The notes beneath the pieces are model-generated. The model was not told where the DNA came from, did no database searches, and worked only from the letters and a program-made list of their open reading frames with translations. Positions 3,090 through 53,923 of a stretch of DNA of 64,000 nucleotides are shown piece by piece (within the stretch, counting starts at the first letter, position 1; each line of letters opens with the position of its first letter). Position numbers and translations under genes: made by a program. The stretch is from Viridothelium virens (lineage: Eukaryota > Ascomycota > Dothideomycetes > Trypetheliales > Trypetheliaceae): positions 1-64,000 of the forward strand of contig ML991867.1 of assembly GCA_010094025.1 (NCBI GenBank), written 5' to 3'.

Positions 3090-3113
3090 GTGATTGAGTC
3101 CGCCACGTCTAGT

Positions 3114-3197
3114 CGGTGAGGGCTATTCGGTGAGTGCTATTCGGTGAGTGCTATTCGGTGAGTGCTATTCGGTGAGTGCTGTCCGGCGAAAGCTAGT
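3114..3197. repeat. 14-bp minisatellite, about six units
   Basis: The unit is CGGTGAGTGCTATT. Units at 3128, 3142 and 3156 are identical; those at 3114, 3170 and 3184 are diverged. It starts 25 bp upstream of the ankyrin gene's ATG, so it sits in its 5' UTR or core promoter. Confidence 0.92.
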
Positions 3198-18369: not shown

Positions 18370-21300
18370 ATGGTCTCTCCTGTCGACGAGAAAGCGGACC
18401 CTGTATACAAAACTAATTTCGATCACGACCGGTCTTCTGAAGAGGAGGGAACTATGGTAGACAACAATTCCGACCACAATGGGGGGAGCCCGGATAATAA
18501 TCATTTGAGGGTCAACACAGATGGGCAAGGGGAAGATGGCCCCCTTCGGATGAGACAGTCACCATCTCAATCTCGTGAGGAGGCACATCGTCTTGATGAC
18601 GAGCTGGCAATGCTACAGGTTGAGCGTCAGATCTCCCAACCAGTGGACAGCGAGCAAATCGGCCGCATAGCCTCTGGCACAAGAGAACGCTCCATGAGGC
18701 GATCTCGGTCAAGGCGTGATGATACCGTCGACGATTTTGACATTGCCACGAACCCTCTCCACGAAAAGGCTGCCATCTATAAGCCTCCGGAACACCCCAC
18801 TACCAATATCGCCAAGATTTTCAAGAAAATCCATCAGTCGAGCTTCATCGTCCGCTGGTTCTTCTACATAACGCCTGTCGTACTGATAATCCTGATACCA
18901 TTACTGCTGGGTACATTCCTGTTCAAGAACGCGAGCGTTGGCGGCGTTAAGTTGATGTGGTTCTCTATTTGGCTGGAAATTGTATGGTTAACTCTTTGGG
19001 CTGGAAGAGTAAGTCAAATCCCCAGTAAACGTCCACACCGGCCCATCCACTCAACCTCCTCTCTCTCTCAGCTCCTCGCGAAGACTCTTCCTTGGCCAAT
19101 TGGCATGACCGCTAGTCTATTCACCAACAACGCAAAGAAATGGAGGGACATGGCCAAACAACTCGAGATGCCAGCCGCCATCTTCTTTTGGTGGCTGGGC
19201 ATTGAAGTCTCCTTCCTGCCTACCATGAAGAGTCACCATCTGGATGGTAACAAAGCAACCCAGGACTGGGAGCGCACGATGAATAAGGTTCTGATTGCCT
19301 TCTTTGTGGGAGCTATTCTGAACTTCGTCGAGAAAATCATAATACAGCTCATCGCTATTAGCTTCCATCTACGAACATATCAAGACCGTATCGATATCAA
19401 CAAATTCCAGATTGGAAGCTTGGCCAAACTTTACAAATTTTCTAAGGAGAAGATCGCGATGGAAGATTCCGACTTCGAGCCTCCGTCTCAGCCAGGCTCT
19501 GGTACGAGGACGCCTGGTCACCTCATGGAATCCGCACAGCTGCATACTAAGCATGCATTTAGCAAATTCGGCGACGTAGCTGGACGTATTGCTGGCGATT
19601 TCACAGGCCGTCAAGTCACCTCCAGTCATCATCCGCACCAGGTCGTGCTGGCTCTCCTTAATAATACTAGTGGAAGCCAGGTTCTTGCGCGTCGCCTCTA
19701 CCGTACGTTTGCCCGGGAGGAAACCGAAACAGTTTTCTCCGAAGACTTGCGAAATGCCTTTGAGAATGATGAAGAAGCCGATGCAGCTTTTACCATGTTC
19801 GATAAGGATATGAATGGTGACATTTCTATGGAAGAGCTCGAGGCAGTTTGCGTGGAAATTGGTCGTGAACGCAAGTCGATTACCGCCTCACTGAAAGATC
19901 TTGATTCCGTTGTTGGAAAACTCGATGATGTCTTCATGTTCCTTGTTGCCGTCATCACCATCTTGGTCTTCATCTCCCTCATCTCTACCTCGGCCGCTGG
20001 CGTTCTTACTTCTGCTGGATCTGCTGTGCTTGCTCTCTCCTGGCTCTTCTCCGCCACCGCTCAAGAATTCTTACAATCGGTCATCTTCGTCTTTGTCAAA
20101 CACCCCTTTGATGTTGGTGATCGTGTGACTATCTTTGGTAATGCTGGTAAGGAAATGAAGGGAGATGACTTCTTTGTAAAAGAAATCTCCCTCTTGTACA
20201 CTGAATTCAAAAAGATGGAGGGTCATATTGTGCAAGCACCCAACAGCTATCTTAACACGATATTCATCCTGAACCAGCGTCGTTCTGGAGGCTTGGCCGA
20301 GGCCGTCACCATCACAATCAAATTCGGCACAACCTTGGAACAAATCGAACAGCTTCGCCTCCGTCTGCTCGAATTCGTCAAGTCCGAGAAACGCGAATTC
20401 CAAGGCAATATCCTCACCGAACTGCGAGACATCGAGGAAGTCCATTCTCTCGATCTTAACGTCATCTTCTTCTATAAGTCTAACTGGCAAAACGAAGGTC
20501 TCCGTCTCGCCCGGCGCAACAAATTCATCTGCGCCCTCATGGTCACCATGCAAGACCTCCACATCGAAGGCCCACGCATGCGGTACCCCGGCCAAAAAGA
20601 ATCCTTCCCCGTCTACCTCCAAAACGTCCCTCACATCTCTTCCGGCCACTCCAGCCACGGTGGCCACCCAGACAACCCCGGCGGCACTCCCATCGAAGAA
20701 TTCCCCCACGAACCCCTTGCGACCCTCTACGAAAAACCCACCTCCCCCTCCTCCTTAACGCCCGGGGGCCGCCCCCACAGCAACACCGACGCCACCACCG
20801 CCTCCACCGACTCCCGCTTCCCCACCACCACGCACCCCTCGATCCTCCGCCACCGCCAACCCAGCAGCGCCAGCGCCCGCCCCCGCGGCGAATCCCTCTC
20901 CCAGATGAACCGCCGCGTCGACTTCTCCCTCGGCATGAAGGACATCGCCTCGGGCGACATGGCCGGCGACGTCTACGAAGCACGCACCCCGCGCTTCCGG
21001 CTGCCGACTCCCTCTTCGGGCGACCCTACCGCCGCCTCCTCGCCCTCGCCCTCGCGCGGCCGCGCGTCTTCGGATCGCGGCGCGGGAGGCAGTCGCGGCC
21101 GCGCGTCGATCGATGTCGCGAGCGGTGCGTCGCGCGATGGGAGCCGCGTCTCGCCGTTTATGGTGCCGGCGTCGGCGCCGCCGCTGCCGCCGAACCCGGG
21201 CCGGATTGCGAGGACGGCGACGGAGAATCTGGAGAGGAATCGGGTTGGTGGGGGCGGGAGGAATCGGTTTTTTGGAAGGAGGAGGGGTGCGAGTCTGCTG

Positions 21301-21609
21301 GAGCGCGATCCGGAGATTGGGGTTGGGGCTGTCGGTATGGCGGATATACCGGAGGAGCTCTTGCGGCCGGGTGCTGCTGCTGCTGGGATAGGAGGAGCTG
21401 GGAGTAGGTTGGATCCGAGAATGGGGCTTCTGAGTTCGGGGGCGGTGAGGAGGAGTGCGGATGATGGAGAGCGGAGGCTGGGGAGTTCGAAGAGTAGTCC
21501 GGGGGTGGTGACAGGGACGGGGGAGAGGGCGGAAGGGATTGGAGCGTTGTTTCCGCAGGACGAGAAGACTGGAGGGGGTGAGGAGTGGCCGGGACTGGAT
21601 CGGAGGTAG
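18370..21609 (+). CDS. MscS mechanosensitive channel with EF hand (Msy1/Msy2 type)
   Basis: The frame is open throughout, but a 63-bp intron at 19009-19071 (GTAAGT...CTCTCAG) is likely, since removing it restores [16 protein letters not shown]; that leaves 1,058 aa. Membrane segments begin around residue 160 ([19 protein letters not shown]), with more at [10 protein letters not shown] and FFVGAILNF. An EF-hand loop ([12 protein letters not shown], about residue 457) precedes two membrane helices ([17 protein letters not shown] and [20 protein letters not shown]) and the MscS beta domain (FDVGDRVTI). Fission-yeast relatives sit in the ER and limit calcium release during osmotic shock. The C-terminal 300 residues are low-complexity and probably disordered, with a GC-rich codon bias. 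Confidence 0.93.
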
Positions 21610-22643
21610 TGGTTAGTGAGGTGGTGCGTAGTATGGGGATGGAGGAATGATGCATTTTCTGCGCAGTGCAGCATGACGACTAATAGACTGATAGACAAGC
21701 GAGTCGAGCGTTGCGTTGGATACGTGTTCCTCGTGTATATTTGTAATAGATGATAGAAATGATGATGACTTAGTTTTACTCTTCACTGTATGCCTTGAAA
21801 GGCTTCTTTGGTCTTGCATGTCGCCACCTATCAATACTTTTCGATCAGGACTATTCATCTTAAGCTCCGAGTGTCATCTCTTACCCAGGTAGATATTGGA
21901 GTGCTCATGCCCGGCGCTTCGTGGATACAAGCTACTAACCGAAAAATTTAGGGTTGTCTGTATCGTTTTGATGAATCTCGTTTTGATCAAAGGCTTAATT
22001 ACATTGGCAGTGGTCAATATCTGACGGGAATCTCAGCCCCCTACTAGGATGTCCCCATATCTAATCAAGAAGAAGCATGGTCTCGTGTCTCACGGTTGTC
22101 TATATCTCGCTCTTTTCTTTCCAGAGTCATGCCATGGGCACGATGGCCAAATGCCTCATGGGCAGATGCTTCATGACGGTTCCCGGAGTCTATGGAGGCC
22201 GAAGTATCGGCCTCCTCTCCATTGTTGACGAAGCTCCCGTGGGAGCTTCGAGAACCTCATGAAGGTGTCTCGGGGTCTAGCTGACCCCGATGGTTAGTTG
22301 GCTAAGTTGGCTCCATGATGAGCCAACTCCGTGATGAAGCCAGCTCCATGACGAGCCAGCTTCTTCCACATCGGCCAGCCAGTGGCCAATACCCTCTACA
22401 GGCAGAGCTCGTTCAACTGACGAGCATCTTCAGATGTCTGGAGCCCTTCGCATGGGGAAGTAAAGGGCAAAGAGACATAGCATAGTAATCTATTGCCTAT
22501 CAGAGAGAGTGGAGAGCTAGCCAGTAAAACACCACCATGTCCCTCCCGCCAGTGCCGCAAAGCATCAAGTCAGTTCCCACCGCAAGCACCATAGCCATTA
22601 CCATCAATTCCGTCAGATTCAATCTTCGGTCCCCCACTTCTCT
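21610..22643. other. Convergent intergenic region with a stem-loop array
   Basis: It lies between the 3' ends of the MscS gene and the RGG-rich gene. The left 500 bp hold nothing I recognise. Bases 22131-22436 carry the stem-loop array listed separately. No coding frame here looks real. Confidence 0.6.
22131..22436. repeat. Array of nine consecutive short stem-loops
   Basis: Perfect or near-perfect inverted repeats, left arm/right arm: 22131-22135/22143-22147; 22194-22202/22207-22215 (GGAGGCCGA); 22229-22238/22241-22250 (CGAAGCTCCC, 2-nt loop); 22270-22277/22283-22290 (TCGGGGTC); 22306-22313/22320-22327 (GTTGGCTC); 22336-22346/22353-22363 with a 2-nt internal mismatch; 22373-22377/22383-22387; 22407-22412/22420-22425; 22425-22429/22432-22436. 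Arms are mostly unrelated in sequence, so this is not a simple tandem repeat. Function is unknown. Confidence 0.85.
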
Positions 22644-25600
22644 CTACCAGAAAGCCTTCCCAAGGGAGGCTAAACTCCCCGGCACATTCCCAGTCGTTTC
22701 CAATTCCGTCCCGGCAGGCTTGAACGTCCATGGTCCCGTATTGTTCTTTCCCACGCTATCCATCCTTGCCACCAGCATCGTGGTAAGTTCCTTCAGTTCT
22801 GCAAGGCGCGAGTACGCGAGGACATCTTCTGAGATCCAAGTGGCTTGCTTCCCTGGCTCGAGGTCGAGGTTCTCCTCGAAACTCGGATGCTGACTTTTGG
22901 GCACGACTGAGGCCTTGTAGAAGCTGTAGCCCTTATGTGCCATGGTAGAGGGGTGGTCTGCATAGAAACGGAATCCGCCCTCTTGGTTCCTCATGATCTC
23001 GAGGTCGTGGACCTCGGTGACTTGCAGGGCCATGTTCTCGTATCGCTGTGGCCGAGGGGCGAAGCGAAATCGGCGCTTGATCATCACCCACTTGATGCGG
23101 AAGTCCTTCGCGGTGACGTGTGTTTGGATCTCCGGAAGGAGGATATCGCCTTGTGCTGAGTCGGCGGCAATGTAGAGGTTTGAGAGTAGCTCGTGTACAC
23201 CGGCATTGTCGTCCTTGTCAAGAGCTCGAGTGCGTGTGCCATTGATAAGTACGCGAGCGTCGTAGATATGCTCTGCAAAATGCCAGTAGATGCTTCCTAT
23301 CGCGTAAGTGCCTTCGTTTAAGAGTTGCGTGCCTTCTTGGTCGATCTCGATGGTGAAGTGATTCTCGTCACCGATCTGACAGACAAATTCGTAGCTCAAG
23401 GACGTTTCAAAGGGGTTTTTCTCAAAAAGGTACTGCTTGTTGCCATCCTTGACTCCGAGGAGATATTGCACGTCCCGTGCGGAAGTAGTGATCCTGGTCG
23501 TAGCATCACTGATTATACCACTAGTCGCTTCCGCATCATTGAGGAATGCCTCCTTGTCTGTTTTGCTTTGTACCTCGTCGGCAAACCGTTTGGTATCATG
23601 GGTACGGCAATAGAGCAAATTCTGCGTCAATTGCACTTCGAAATCGAGCTTTCCTCGAAACGCGCGGGCGTCTTCAAGAATTCCAAGAGCTACATGATAT
23701 AAACCGTCCATGCTAGGATCCTTTGGCTTAAGACTCGAAATTTCTGGCTGACTGGAATTTGCCTCCGCGCGTTCGGGTTGTGAAGGTTCCGGTAGGAGAG
23801 GTTCTGAAGGAAGGATAGGCCTGCCCCAATACTCGTCGATGAGTTGTTGTTGTAAGAAATTGGCGATAGTATTGCTCCGCGTATTGTCCTGATGCGATGG
23901 ACGTTGCTTGCCTTGTCCTTTCTTTGGCGGCCTTTGATGATGCATGGTCCCGCGCTTGTCATCCAAGTCGTCTTCGCGGACGGGCTGAATGCGTTCAGTG
24001 CCCGGCGTATTGTCCACAACTCCTTGGTTTACCATTTCAGCAAGCTGCACGCTCGGCAGATCGCTTTGAAGCTGAGTGGCACTGTTTGTAGCCACAGAAG
24101 CAGGGAAAAGCGTGTCCGTGCTCGCCGCATCATTCGACTTGATCTCAGTGTTGCCACCAGCGACGATACCCAGGTTTGGGTTCAAGGTAGTAGCATGCGC
24201 CAAAGCGCCTGGCAGATCGGCTTTCATCAGGTCAATTTCCTCGTCATCGGAGGCAGTGAACTCCGGACCGGGGTTGGAAGGCTTCATCTGTGCTACGGGC
24301 AAAGTGATGATTTCAAATCCGGTCGGGACTGTTGGTGCTGCCGTAGGTGTCTGGCCAGTAGCATTGAATGATGTCTTGTGGTCAGCTCTACCTGGATTCG
24401 GAGGGTCCTCGATGGGGATGGAGAATTGTGTGATGTGAGACTTGTTTTCATCAGCCGATTCAATGCCGACTCCACACGAATGTGGTACATCATTGGCAAG
24501 CTGCACCAACGGCCGCCCGACAGGCTGCTGAGCAGCACCACGTGGGCCAAAAGCTGGATTACCGCGCGCACCACGAGGGCCGAAGCCATGACTGACACCA
24601 CGTCCAATACTCCGGGGAATGCCCCTCCCTCCTCCGACACTACCACTATTACCACCACCGCGGTTGCTACCTCGATTACTACCACGACCGCCGCGTTCGC
24701 CACCGCGTCCAGGAGAAAGGACTGATGCGTAACTCGACGGACCACGTGGCGCGTTGACTACGCCTCGCGCTGAGATGTTCTGCACATGGTGTCCTCGGCC
24801 ACGCTGGTGATGGGGCAGTGGATCGGCTCTCTGAGGTGGGATATTTGCGACCGACTGCAGGGGTCTGTTCTGTATGGAGGGTCCTGCGACGCCTCGACGC
24901 TTGTGTGGGGGTAATGATTCTTCCTGATTGAATGACTTGCTGCGGACACTGTCGGAAACATTGGGTGTTGAGCCGGAGACATTGGATGTTGCAGCGGAGA
25001 CTTCATTCATCCACTTGTAGACAATACGGTCTTTCTCCGGAATTATCGTCATCCCGGTCCGTGGTGGCAGTGGATCTAACAAAGAGGGCGGGATGGCTTT
25101 GGATGCGTCGCCGATTTCTTGGATCTCCAGTGTCTCCGGGCGAAAGTAGCCCCAGGACACATCGGTGGAGACGGGTTCGGCTTTTGTTTCCGCGACGTAG
25201 TAATCCATATAATCTCTGTTGTAATACATCGTGCGACAGGTACGCGTAGTTGGAAGAATGCTTTTCCATTTCGAACTGCCATTTTGCGGCACGTTAGCAT
25301 GGTTGCAATGTACCACAGGAGTAGATGACTGGAGAGTTCGTGATTAACTTACTCATTGCTGACCAATGTCCTATGCATTACATCCTCAGGCACAGCTTTC
25401 AGCTTCGGCAGCTGCACAAAAGCGTCTTTCTTTCCGTCGTGCTCGATTTGGTGAAGTTTGTGAGGAGTGCGGTTCTAGAGATATCAGCACAGGTTCAATA
25501 GAAGGCACAGATGATTCTTACCGCCCAGACCTCGAGATTTGTGAGTCGTGAGCTCAGGTCCATTAATTGGCCAGTACTAGCATCACCTACACAGGCTACA

Positions 25601-51545: not shown

Positions 51546-52045
51546 AAAGCTATTGCTTTCGCTCAATCGTATCGCATATGATACTTAAAGATGAGAATGT
51601 CGAATAGTCACATTTGTCCTTATATTAGTCGTCGTCGTTTGTGGCATATCTCCAGCTGGAAGTATGAGGGATTCTCGCCCCGTCACGTGAGTTGGTGTTG
51701 CAATGCGGACGCGCTACAAATTTCGGTGAAGGTCGACACAACACTTGATATCAACCCAACGTGATGTCCATCCAAAAGATTCAATGGTCACAGAACTCTG
51801 TAGCTCCCAGAAACAAGTAAGTGAATGAACGTACGCCAGCACAATGACGTCACAAATTGGAATCGGAGTTCAGCACTTGAAGTGTCTTCACTTCTCGCTG
51901 CTTCCTTCTTTCGCGCTTCACAACAGTTGACCTACGCACATTCTCTTGCCAAATCCGTGCACCTTGATTGTTTCTAGATTTTCACCTTCTCTGCTCAGTC
52001 TTCTTTGACTTTACACCTCGTCTCCTGGCTCTACGATTCGACACC
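51546..52045. other. Upstream region of the zinc-knuckle gene
   Basis: Nothing beyond a pyrimidine-rich stretch just before the start codon was recognised. Confidence 0.4.
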
Positions 52046-53923
52046 ATGATGGAGACGGCTTTGAAGGCGGAGGGAAAGCGCACCGCCCAAAGTCCTCGCG
52101 CAGACAAAGACCCGGGCGAGTCGAAGCGTCCAAAGCTCGAAGAAGATTTTGACCATGTCCCGTCGGACAATGTGTCCTCTTCAACTGCTACGTCCGAAAG
52201 TAGCCTTCCAGATGATTTCGAAGACTTAACGTTTGCGAGTCCAGAGATGACTTCTGCCACGCACAGCAAGCCAATCACCCAACAAGTGCAAAGGTCTTCT
52301 CGCTCCACAGGGTTGGATGGGTCAAATGCCCAGAACCGTGACAAATGCACGGAACAGGAGACGCAGCTTGCTAGTCTTGTCTTTTCATTTCATAAGAGAG
52401 CGAGCAGTAGCGATTTCATGGCTTTCCTTACTCAAGGTAGAGCTTTCATCATATCTGTAGAGATCCCGAAACGCACGGTGTTCCGCCTCGAGAGAAATCC
52501 CCGCAATCAAGTCAGTTCTAGTATTCTTGCCCATATTGCAAGGTACGGGTACCATCAAATCGAGGGCCTAGTCTTTCTGAACAGTCCGCCGGAATATGCC
52601 CACGTTCTTGCAATATACGACGACAAGGAGTCTGCAGATGCCATGAGGTCTAGCATGTCATCAGTAAGCTTCACTGTCCTGGGTTTCATGGTTGGTCTAC
52701 AAGTGGCTGTGCCCACATCGTCGAATACTTCGTTGGACCGACGAGACCCTCCCCGAAAAGTTCTGAAAGAGTACCGGGGAGATATTACTCGCGAACGAGT
52801 TGCGCTGCTGGATTCCATGGGGGGACTTCGCGAGTATGCATTTAATCGCTACAACCTGACCGTCGAAGCTCGTAAACGTACATTGGAGAGGAGAAAAACT
52901 TTCCACAGCAAACACGGCTTTGTCACCGCTGCTCAAGACGCTGGGCTAACGTCTACTGGAGCGGCAATGCCCAGGGCACCTTCATCCACCGCTGCTCAAG
53001 ATGCTGGGCCATCATCTGCGGGAGAGGCAATGCCCAGGACGTCTTCATCCACCGCTTCCTTCCTTACTGCTTCGACAGCATTCCCAATGTCGCACGGCAT
53101 TCGACAGTTCGGCGGTTTGTCCACGCCGCCTTGGCGCTTCAAACAACCGCAGCTGCCAGCTACAACATATGGACTACCTTCGACAGCCAACTTCTCATTC
53201 TCTGCGCCAATCTCCCATCAGCCATATCTCCCAACAGCAATAGACAAAGGTTTCACATCGACTGCTTCCTATTTGCTTCCTTCTGGCATCAATCAACACC
53301 AGTCATCTGCTGTGATGTCCAGGCCATCTGCGTCAACTTTGATTTCTCCTCCAACAACAAGCTTTAACAAACCGAGGCCGCCTCCTCAAGGTACTACACC
53401 ACATGGATCGAGCATGCCATCTGTTCCGGCTTCTGTCGCCTACCAGCCAGGGTCGGACGTAATGCCCATCAATTACCCATCAGCATACTCCCATCCTTCA
53501 TATTCCACTTTTGCTCAATCGCAGCCTAGGTCAGTGCGCTATAATTTCTCGTCATCTGCTTCAGCCTTTCCGCCTCAGCATTTGATCGTTCGAGGGCTGG
53601 CGTAAACGCTCAGGCACTTCGGTTGATTGCTCATCTTTTCATCCCCGGTCCTTCAATCAACTATACCAATCTAGCTTCAGAAGTCTAAAAGAGCACTTCC
53701 TCACAGGGATACGAAACTCTCGGATATCGACGCATTGGAGCAATACTACCAAGGAAGAGACTACGGTATCATTCATCCCGATGAACTAGTCCAGTGTCGA
53801 CGCTGCCTTGGCCGAGGTCATATGCCAGATGACTGCCCAAGTCGAGCATGCAAGCATTGCGGAGAGCTCGACAAGCACTTTGACTATCAATGCCCTCGCC
53901 GCGGCGGCCGTATGGGTCGCTGA
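52046..53923 (+). CDS. Disordered protein with C-terminal CCHC zinc knuckle
   Basis: Exons 52046-53601 and 53707-53923 give 590 aa. The start at 52046 has a good context (CACCATGATGG). The N terminus is acidic with a possible nuclear signal (ESKRPKLEEDF). Residues about 115-260 look folded (LASLVFSFHKRASSSDFMAF, VFRLERNPRNQVSSSILAHI). A 21-residue unit beginning AAQDAG is duplicated in tandem, followed by a long Ser/Pro/Thr-rich tract. Exon 2 encodes a canonical zinc knuckle CRRCLGRGHMPDDC and a second, looser one, CKHCGELDKHFDYQC. Such knuckles usually bind single-stranded RNA. The intron donor GTAAAC is weak, so the two parts could instead be separate genes. Confidence 0.65.
52928..53053 (+). 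repeat. 63-bp tandem duplication inside the coding region
   Basis: Units start at 52928 and 52991, both with GCTGCTCAAGA, and encode AAQDAGLTSTGAAMPRAPSST-like 21-mers. The second copy differs at about six residues, so the duplication is not very recent. Confidence 0.85.

Follow-up and report, generated by a model that had tools for sequence, protein, structure and literature searches.

The window, i.e. the whole stretch of DNA analysed here, comprises bases 1-64,000 of a 78,922-base contig (C97) of the Viridothelium virens assembly (30.7 Mb in 175 contigs), and all comparisons described below were made within this one genome. Positions 21610-22643 form an intergenic spacer of 1034 bp which is bounded by the ends of two convergent open reading frames (ORFs). 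The left ORF lies on the plus strand, ends at 21609 and harbors the Pfam family MS_channel_2nd (PF00924), the MscS beta-domain, together with sub-threshold EF-hand matches. Among solved proteins, its best relatives are named Mechanosensitive ion channel protein 10 and Flycatcher1, and as a query in a plasmid search it gave no match. The end of this ORF encodes a low-complexity tail, and three frames in its 3′ part (20809-21318), with 72-75% G+C, fold strongly owing to that G+C. The right ORF lies on the minus strand, ends at 22644 and encodes 890 amino acids with RGG-rich stretches; no Pfam family matched it at an E-value of 0.001.

Between these genes lies the subject of this analysis, a hairpin-dense segment at 22131-22436. 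A first-pass annotation, made from the sequence alone, had placed it where two genes converge, and the ORF ends at 21609 (plus) and 22644 (minus) bear this out. The segment begins 208 bases past the stop codon of the minus-strand ORF and has a G+C content of 56.5%, against 43.8% and 50.7% in the remaining spacer to its left and right, respectively. Two further repeats were seen elsewhere in the window. At 3109-3180, a 14-bp unit is repeated in tandem 5.1 times with 96% matches (alternatively, 28-bp units in 3.4 copies extend to 3203). A 63-bp unit of 21 codons occurs in 2.1 copies at 52924-53056, within the plus-strand ORF 51968-53605, and is probably a repeat inside the protein.

The same annotation had described nine stem-loops in the segment. 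A mechanical search (net arm score of at least 5, loop of 2-12 nucleotides, one mismatch permitted) recovered nine disjoint hairpins at 22131-22147, 22156-22176, 22194-22215, 22229-22250, 22270-22290, 22305-22328, 22334-22349, 22370-22390 and 22407-22425. Among them are the perfect stems at 22194-22215 (9 bp, loop of 4), 22229-22250 (10 bp, loop of 2) and 22270-22290 (8 bp, loop of 5), as well as the 9-bp stem with a loop of 6 at 22305-22328. Five hairpins had been credited with perfect arms of 8-10 bp, a count that the mechanical search lowers to four. An alternative 11-bp register at 22336-22363 contains two A.C mismatches on the plus strand which become G.U pairs on the minus strand. Furthermore, an outer helix is predicted on both strands between CTTCATGA (22169-22176) and TCATGAAG (22257-22264). 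It spans 22169-22264, encloses two hairpins and would join hairpins into a multi-branch fold on either strand.

The number and quality of these stems exceed what chance delivers. The summed stem score of the segment is 63, compared with 21.5 ± 8.0 in 1000 dinucleotide shuffles, whose maximum was 48 (0/1000 reach 63). For the genomic background, 10-kb stretches were taken from 20 contigs and divided into 640 non-overlapping windows of 306 bp, in which coding and non-coding sequence are mixed; these scored 16.2 ± 8.1 with a maximum of 45, and none of the 640 reached the value of the segment. Both controls thus uphold the hairpin excess of the segment. Since the borders of the segment had been chosen by the reader, the 64-kb window was also scored on a fixed grid of 102 bases: the best frame of the segment scores 58 and the best non-overlapping frame, among the eight listed, 42. 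Perfect stems of at least 8 bp are also concentrated, as four of the 46 present in 264 kb fall in the segment, while away from it no 306-bp frame (moved in 25-base steps over the 264 kb) holds more than one. Predicted folding is exceptionally stable for the composition, with z-scores of -6.24 on the plus and -7.74 on the minus strand, and 0/100 shuffles are equally stable on either strand. Six of the eight best-folding frames listed for the window do not overlap the segment, and these have 69-75% G+C compared with 56% in the segment.

The hairpin excess is therefore real, statistically strong and non-random. A chance origin could appeal to the fact that the reader was hunting for such patterns and picked borders to fit them. 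Against the 0/1000 shuffles and 0/640 genome windows that reach the stem total, this explanation is hardly credible, and at the level of control given by the shuffles, the genome windows and the perfect-stem scan of 264 kb we consider it ruled out. With 264 kb of the 30.7 Mb scanned, we estimate that up to some hundreds of similar, unrelated clusters could lie elsewhere in the genome.

Inverted repeats are not the only repeats in the segment. Tandem Repeats Finder (TRF) reports a 16-bp unit in 3.2 copies at 22310-22361 (score 74) and, at the left end of the segment, a weak 15-bp unit in 2.2 copies at 22143-22175 (plus strand; score 45, under the TRF default threshold of 50). The earlier statement that the segment is not a tandem satellite is thus only partly right. 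Around the stronger array, the octamer AGTTGGCT occurs twice, at 22296 and 22305; its exact reverse complement AGCCAACT occurs once, at 22321, and AGCCAGCT, one base off that reverse complement, occurs twice, at 22338 and 22354. This family of arm octamers therefore has five occurrences within the sub-array 22296-22363, direct as well as inverted and with variation at one base, so that arms compete for one partner. The segment is more than a mere succession of unrelated hairpins.

Direct repeats were counted against 500 dinucleotide shuffles and 500 sequences from a control that keeps the hairpins; the latter used 22334-22361 for the hairpin 22336-22363, so that some mismatched columns were kept, which leaves the dinucleotide control unaffected. 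The segment contains 41 direct 6-mer pairs, where the dinucleotide and hairpin-keeping controls average 13.7 and 12.3 (0/500 in either reach 41). For 7-mers there are 15 pairs against 3.6 and 3.2 (reached by 0/500 and 1/500), and for 8-mers six pairs against 0.83 and 0.88 (1/500 and 7/500). The 9-mers show no clear excess (1 against 0.2; 66/500 dinucleotide and 72/500 hairpin-keeping sequences reach this). Non-local inverted 6-mers number 19, a value reached by 12/500 hairpin-keeping and 63/500 dinucleotide sequences, and non-local inverted 7- and 8-mers are not in excess over either control. Since the inverted 8-mers show no non-local excess, inverted copying appears to be local.

One part of the segment has a likeness elsewhere in the genome. 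The full spacer was compared at the DNA level with the whole genome (E-values up to 10). This search, which scores the best candidates only, so that weaker or shorter matches may escape it, found one other place, and the match is partial. Positions 22223-22266, which read TFMRFSKLPRELRQ on the minus strand, are identical at 41 of 44 bases to C18:207127-207170. An ORF begins there that carries the Pfam family 2EXR (PF20150), which scores 28 bits against a cut-off of 24.8 and covers profile positions 1-22 of 94. At nine other reported 2EXR loci, the 44 bases reach at best 22-27 identities in an ungapped match, which argues for a common origin with the C18 gene and not for a shared protein motif. 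The 44-bp piece contains the longest perfect hairpin of the segment, the 10-bp stem at 22229-22250; that part at least therefore has an ordinary source.

Compared with the C18 gene, the window copy has three differences, two of them within this hairpin, and all three raise its inverted symmetry. Two restore predicted pairs, namely 22249-22230 in the hairpin and 22259-22174 in the outer helix. The third, at 22238, completes the DNA palindrome beside the 2-nucleotide loop, where RNA does not pair. This pattern would be striking if the window copy were the changed one. However, if it was the gene that changed, differences would be expected to fall in paired columns, which make up 31 to 33 of the 44, so we count the pattern as a hint only.

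The possibility of dispersed copies, raised in the first-pass annotation, was not borne out: among the best candidates scored in the DNA search there was no second copy of the segment, the one 44-bp match being partial. Pattern searches of the genome with four hairpins or repeat units extend this picture. The 10-bp hairpin was found in the window itself and in the C18 gene. The pattern of the 9-bp hairpin (22194-22215) has one other place at two mismatches, on contig C6, which by our estimate is about as expected by chance. Another pattern has two places at two mismatches, with one match for its control, and the 8-bp hairpin at 22270-22290 has no second place at up to one mismatch. As far as these searches reach, the segment is apparently single-copy.

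Could the whole 2EXR gene then have been copied into the spacer and decayed, the hairpins being accidents of its coding sequence? Translated comparison (tblastx) gives a weak contrary sign to the DNA results, as it stretches the likeness to the C18 gene to 24-28 residues; the edge of the scrap on one side may therefore be blunter than the DNA test says. The gene also has a piece in common with another contig: 98 bp from its middle recur, 88% identical, at C2:839570-839667. However, DNA identity falls from 93% to shuffle level on both sides of the 44-bp match, where flanks of 120 bases are matched as well by 68/300 and 69/300 letter shuffles. The C18 stretch itself holds only four perfect stems of at least 7 bp in 3044 bases, and pattern searches with three other hairpins or repeat units gave no convincing second place. 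Neither the DNA search, nor tblastx, nor the flank test revealed a graded likeness along the gene beyond its first residues. A whole decayed gene is thus disfavoured by the flank test, and we regard it as quite unlikely. In the 601 bases around the piece on C2 (C2:839320-839920; L045) the likeness stops sharply on both sides and the matching frame is open for 101 codons, so that the piece may be a relic, belong to another gene or represent a gene that was rearranged. Read from the sequence, this suggests that pieces of the C18 2EXR gene have moved about.

The same likeness raises the idea of a young microRNA-like locus, a hairpin antisense to the 2EXR gene from which it derives. In an RNA from the plus strand, 41 of 44 bases would complement the beginning of the 2EXR coding sequence, and fungi are reported to produce microRNA-like RNAs. 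The stems of 8-10 bp are short for such a precursor, however, and the best ungapped 21-nucleotide duplex on the plus strand pairs 17 of 21 positions with arm starts 112 bases apart, which as a predicted structure makes a weak microRNA-like precursor. We judge this reading to be very improbable.

A compact, hairpin-rich, intergenic segment may also recall a mobile element, here a decayed foldback or MITE-like element with eroded end repeats, and foldback MITEs of one family, about 187 bp long, do occur in this genome in at least 41 places. Yet the genome DNA searches, which scored the best candidates, found no second copy of the segment, and the window has no similarity to the 187-bp element at an E-value of 1. 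Neither terminal inverted repeats nor a target-site duplication were found: the best end-to-end inverted and direct matches between the 50-base edge stretches are 6 bp long, within chance (mean 5.2, 95th percentile 7). Both are hairpin-forming, non-coding DNA, whereas the MITE is one long hairpin at 41 or more places and the segment comprises many short hairpins in the single copy found. A mobile-element origin thus seems unlikely. The MITE-like element itself came to light at L002:1102-1288 on C18, upstream of the 2EXR ORF. Its identity with its own reverse complement is 80%, and it is predicted to form one long hairpin. The at least 41 genome places correspond to 82 matches, each place being matched on both strands; two of them are at contig ends (C39:1-173 and C7:607357-607529), and two of the 20 ten-kb stretches (L015 and L021) also contain the element. 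RIP, which raises the TpA/ApT ratio, was considered and rejected, as this ratio is 0.37 in the segment and not raised.

The main rival to a mutational origin is function. The hairpins could belong to a structured RNA, or to a 3′-UTR or 3′-end structure of one or both convergent genes, which would protect or end transcripts or separate the genes. Several observations are consistent with it: the folding z-scores, the position of the segment 208 bases beyond the minus-strand stop codon and the predicted outer helix, which on either strand gives a multi-branch fold. In the local hairpins, three columns that are A.C on the plus strand become G.U pairs on the minus strand and one behaves the other way; with the better folding of the minus strand, these very small numbers give a slight lean to a minus-strand RNA. 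The strand signs are mixed, as the whole predicted folds contain six G.U pairs on the plus and seven on the minus strand and therefore indicate no clear strand.

Searches for known RNAs weigh against function. No Rfam 15 family reaches its gathering cut-off in the segment, and in a permissive search the scores were far below it (SNORD125, 20.6 bits against 56; CC2171, 13 against 75). The SNORD125 match (22299-22366, E-value 0.43) covers ATGATGA and GTGATGA inside the 16-bp repeat, motifs which we take to resemble C boxes; we regard it as a chance match. ARAGORN found no tRNA. The segment does not match the ascomycete telomerase RNA family RF02462, for which one match was reported in the genome among two candidates scored (C1:490479-490576, E-value 5.4e-10, 100 of 1858 model positions). 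The polyadenylation-type hexamers AATAAA and ATTAAA are missing from both strands of the spacer, and AAATAA and TAATAA from its plus strand. Redundant, competing arms and direct repeats are likewise awkward for a functional fold, and one hairpin sits in a coding-gene likeness. The structured RNA or shared 3′-end structure proposed earlier therefore stands in part: the hairpins are not random and the spacer that holds them is convergent, but the Rfam match and the AATAAA/ATTAAA signals are lacking and one hairpin is gene-like. Strong stems would also fit an RNA under selection, and selection and mutation give the same picture in a single genome. On balance we regard function, be it of an RNA or of a gene-end structure, as conceivable but doubtful.

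Inverted repeats near gene ends have a precedent in yeast (Miura et al. 2018, PMC6420913). There, as in the segment, inverted repeats that are short lie close to the 3′ ends of genes. In yeast, however, the repeats with enrichment at poly(A) sites are rich in A/T, whereas those of the segment lie in 56.5% G+C, nine in a row. The segment thus does not fit the yeast type of A/T-rich repeats near poly(A) signals, the hexamers named above being absent.

What was observed, then, is an excess of hairpins and of short direct repeats, together with a likeness to one gene over 44 bp; the searches found no other copy. Template switching during replication or repair would leave just such local copies, inverted and direct, and a gene scrap. 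With moderate confidence, we propose that the segment is a one-off non-coding patchwork of short local inverted and tandem duplications, as by template switching, plus a copied gene scrap. Short pieces of DNA would have been copied locally in inverted orientation, giving hairpins, and in direct orientation, giving short tandem repeats, and the spacer would have acquired, from another place in the genome, a copied scrap of the 2EXR gene. Template-switch or quasipalindrome mutation is the likely route: a strand undergoing replication or repair folds back, or moves over by a few bases, and then takes the opposite strand as its template. An existing hairpin would invite more switching and keep its own two arms matched; through such self-matching, each hairpin would be near-perfect while the hairpins differ from one another. 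RNA function, if any, would be secondary. We infer this mechanism, the gene-to-spacer direction and the order of events from the arrangement of the repeats.

Near-perfect short inverted repeats above chance, a mark of template switching, are present in the segment. Monttinen and Löytynoja (2022, PMC8794818) argue that template switching can make a perfect stem at a single stroke and can mend stems that already exist, and they grade the evidence for the maintenance of short stems in this way as circumstantial. The segment resembles the hairpins of that study in its perfect short stems, in arms that match within the hairpin and in nearby reverse-complement copies. It differs in that the published cases rest on reconstructed ancestors, whereas the segment is read in one genome and has nine hairpins in a row. 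For the gene scrap, a second known process offers a parallel. Gene-fragment (templated) insertions occur at repaired breaks and leave a short ectopic gene piece whose flanks are unlike the source. This is what the 44-bp piece looks like, although the remaining segment has no identified source. Titles and abstract openings on template switching, fungal intergenic hairpins, 2EXR, templated insertions, fungal microRNA-like RNAs and foldback MITEs contained no report of such a hairpin cluster. The segment is thus explained in part, through the one hairpin in a gene-like piece; that the rest is best read as a mutational patchwork is a statement we hold to be about evenly balanced between right and wrong.

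More tentatively, the spacer may be a hairpin nursery, a site between convergent genes where repeated template switching keeps making and perfecting hairpins, perhaps at collisions of replication with transcription. An ectopic gene scrap would have been captured there as one of them, and such a site might supply raw material for new structured or regulatory RNAs; we offer this as a possibility, with considerable reserve.

How RNA stems originate from random sequence is an open question, and the answer given by template switching rests mainly on reconstructed histories. At present the cluster is a real, only partly explained oddity of one spacer. Dense and apparently single-copy, and with a known source gene for one of its pieces, it would be a good place to watch the birth of stems in a comparison of sister strains or species. 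Should it prove to be conserved instead, it would represent a structured RNA or gene-end element new to fungi.
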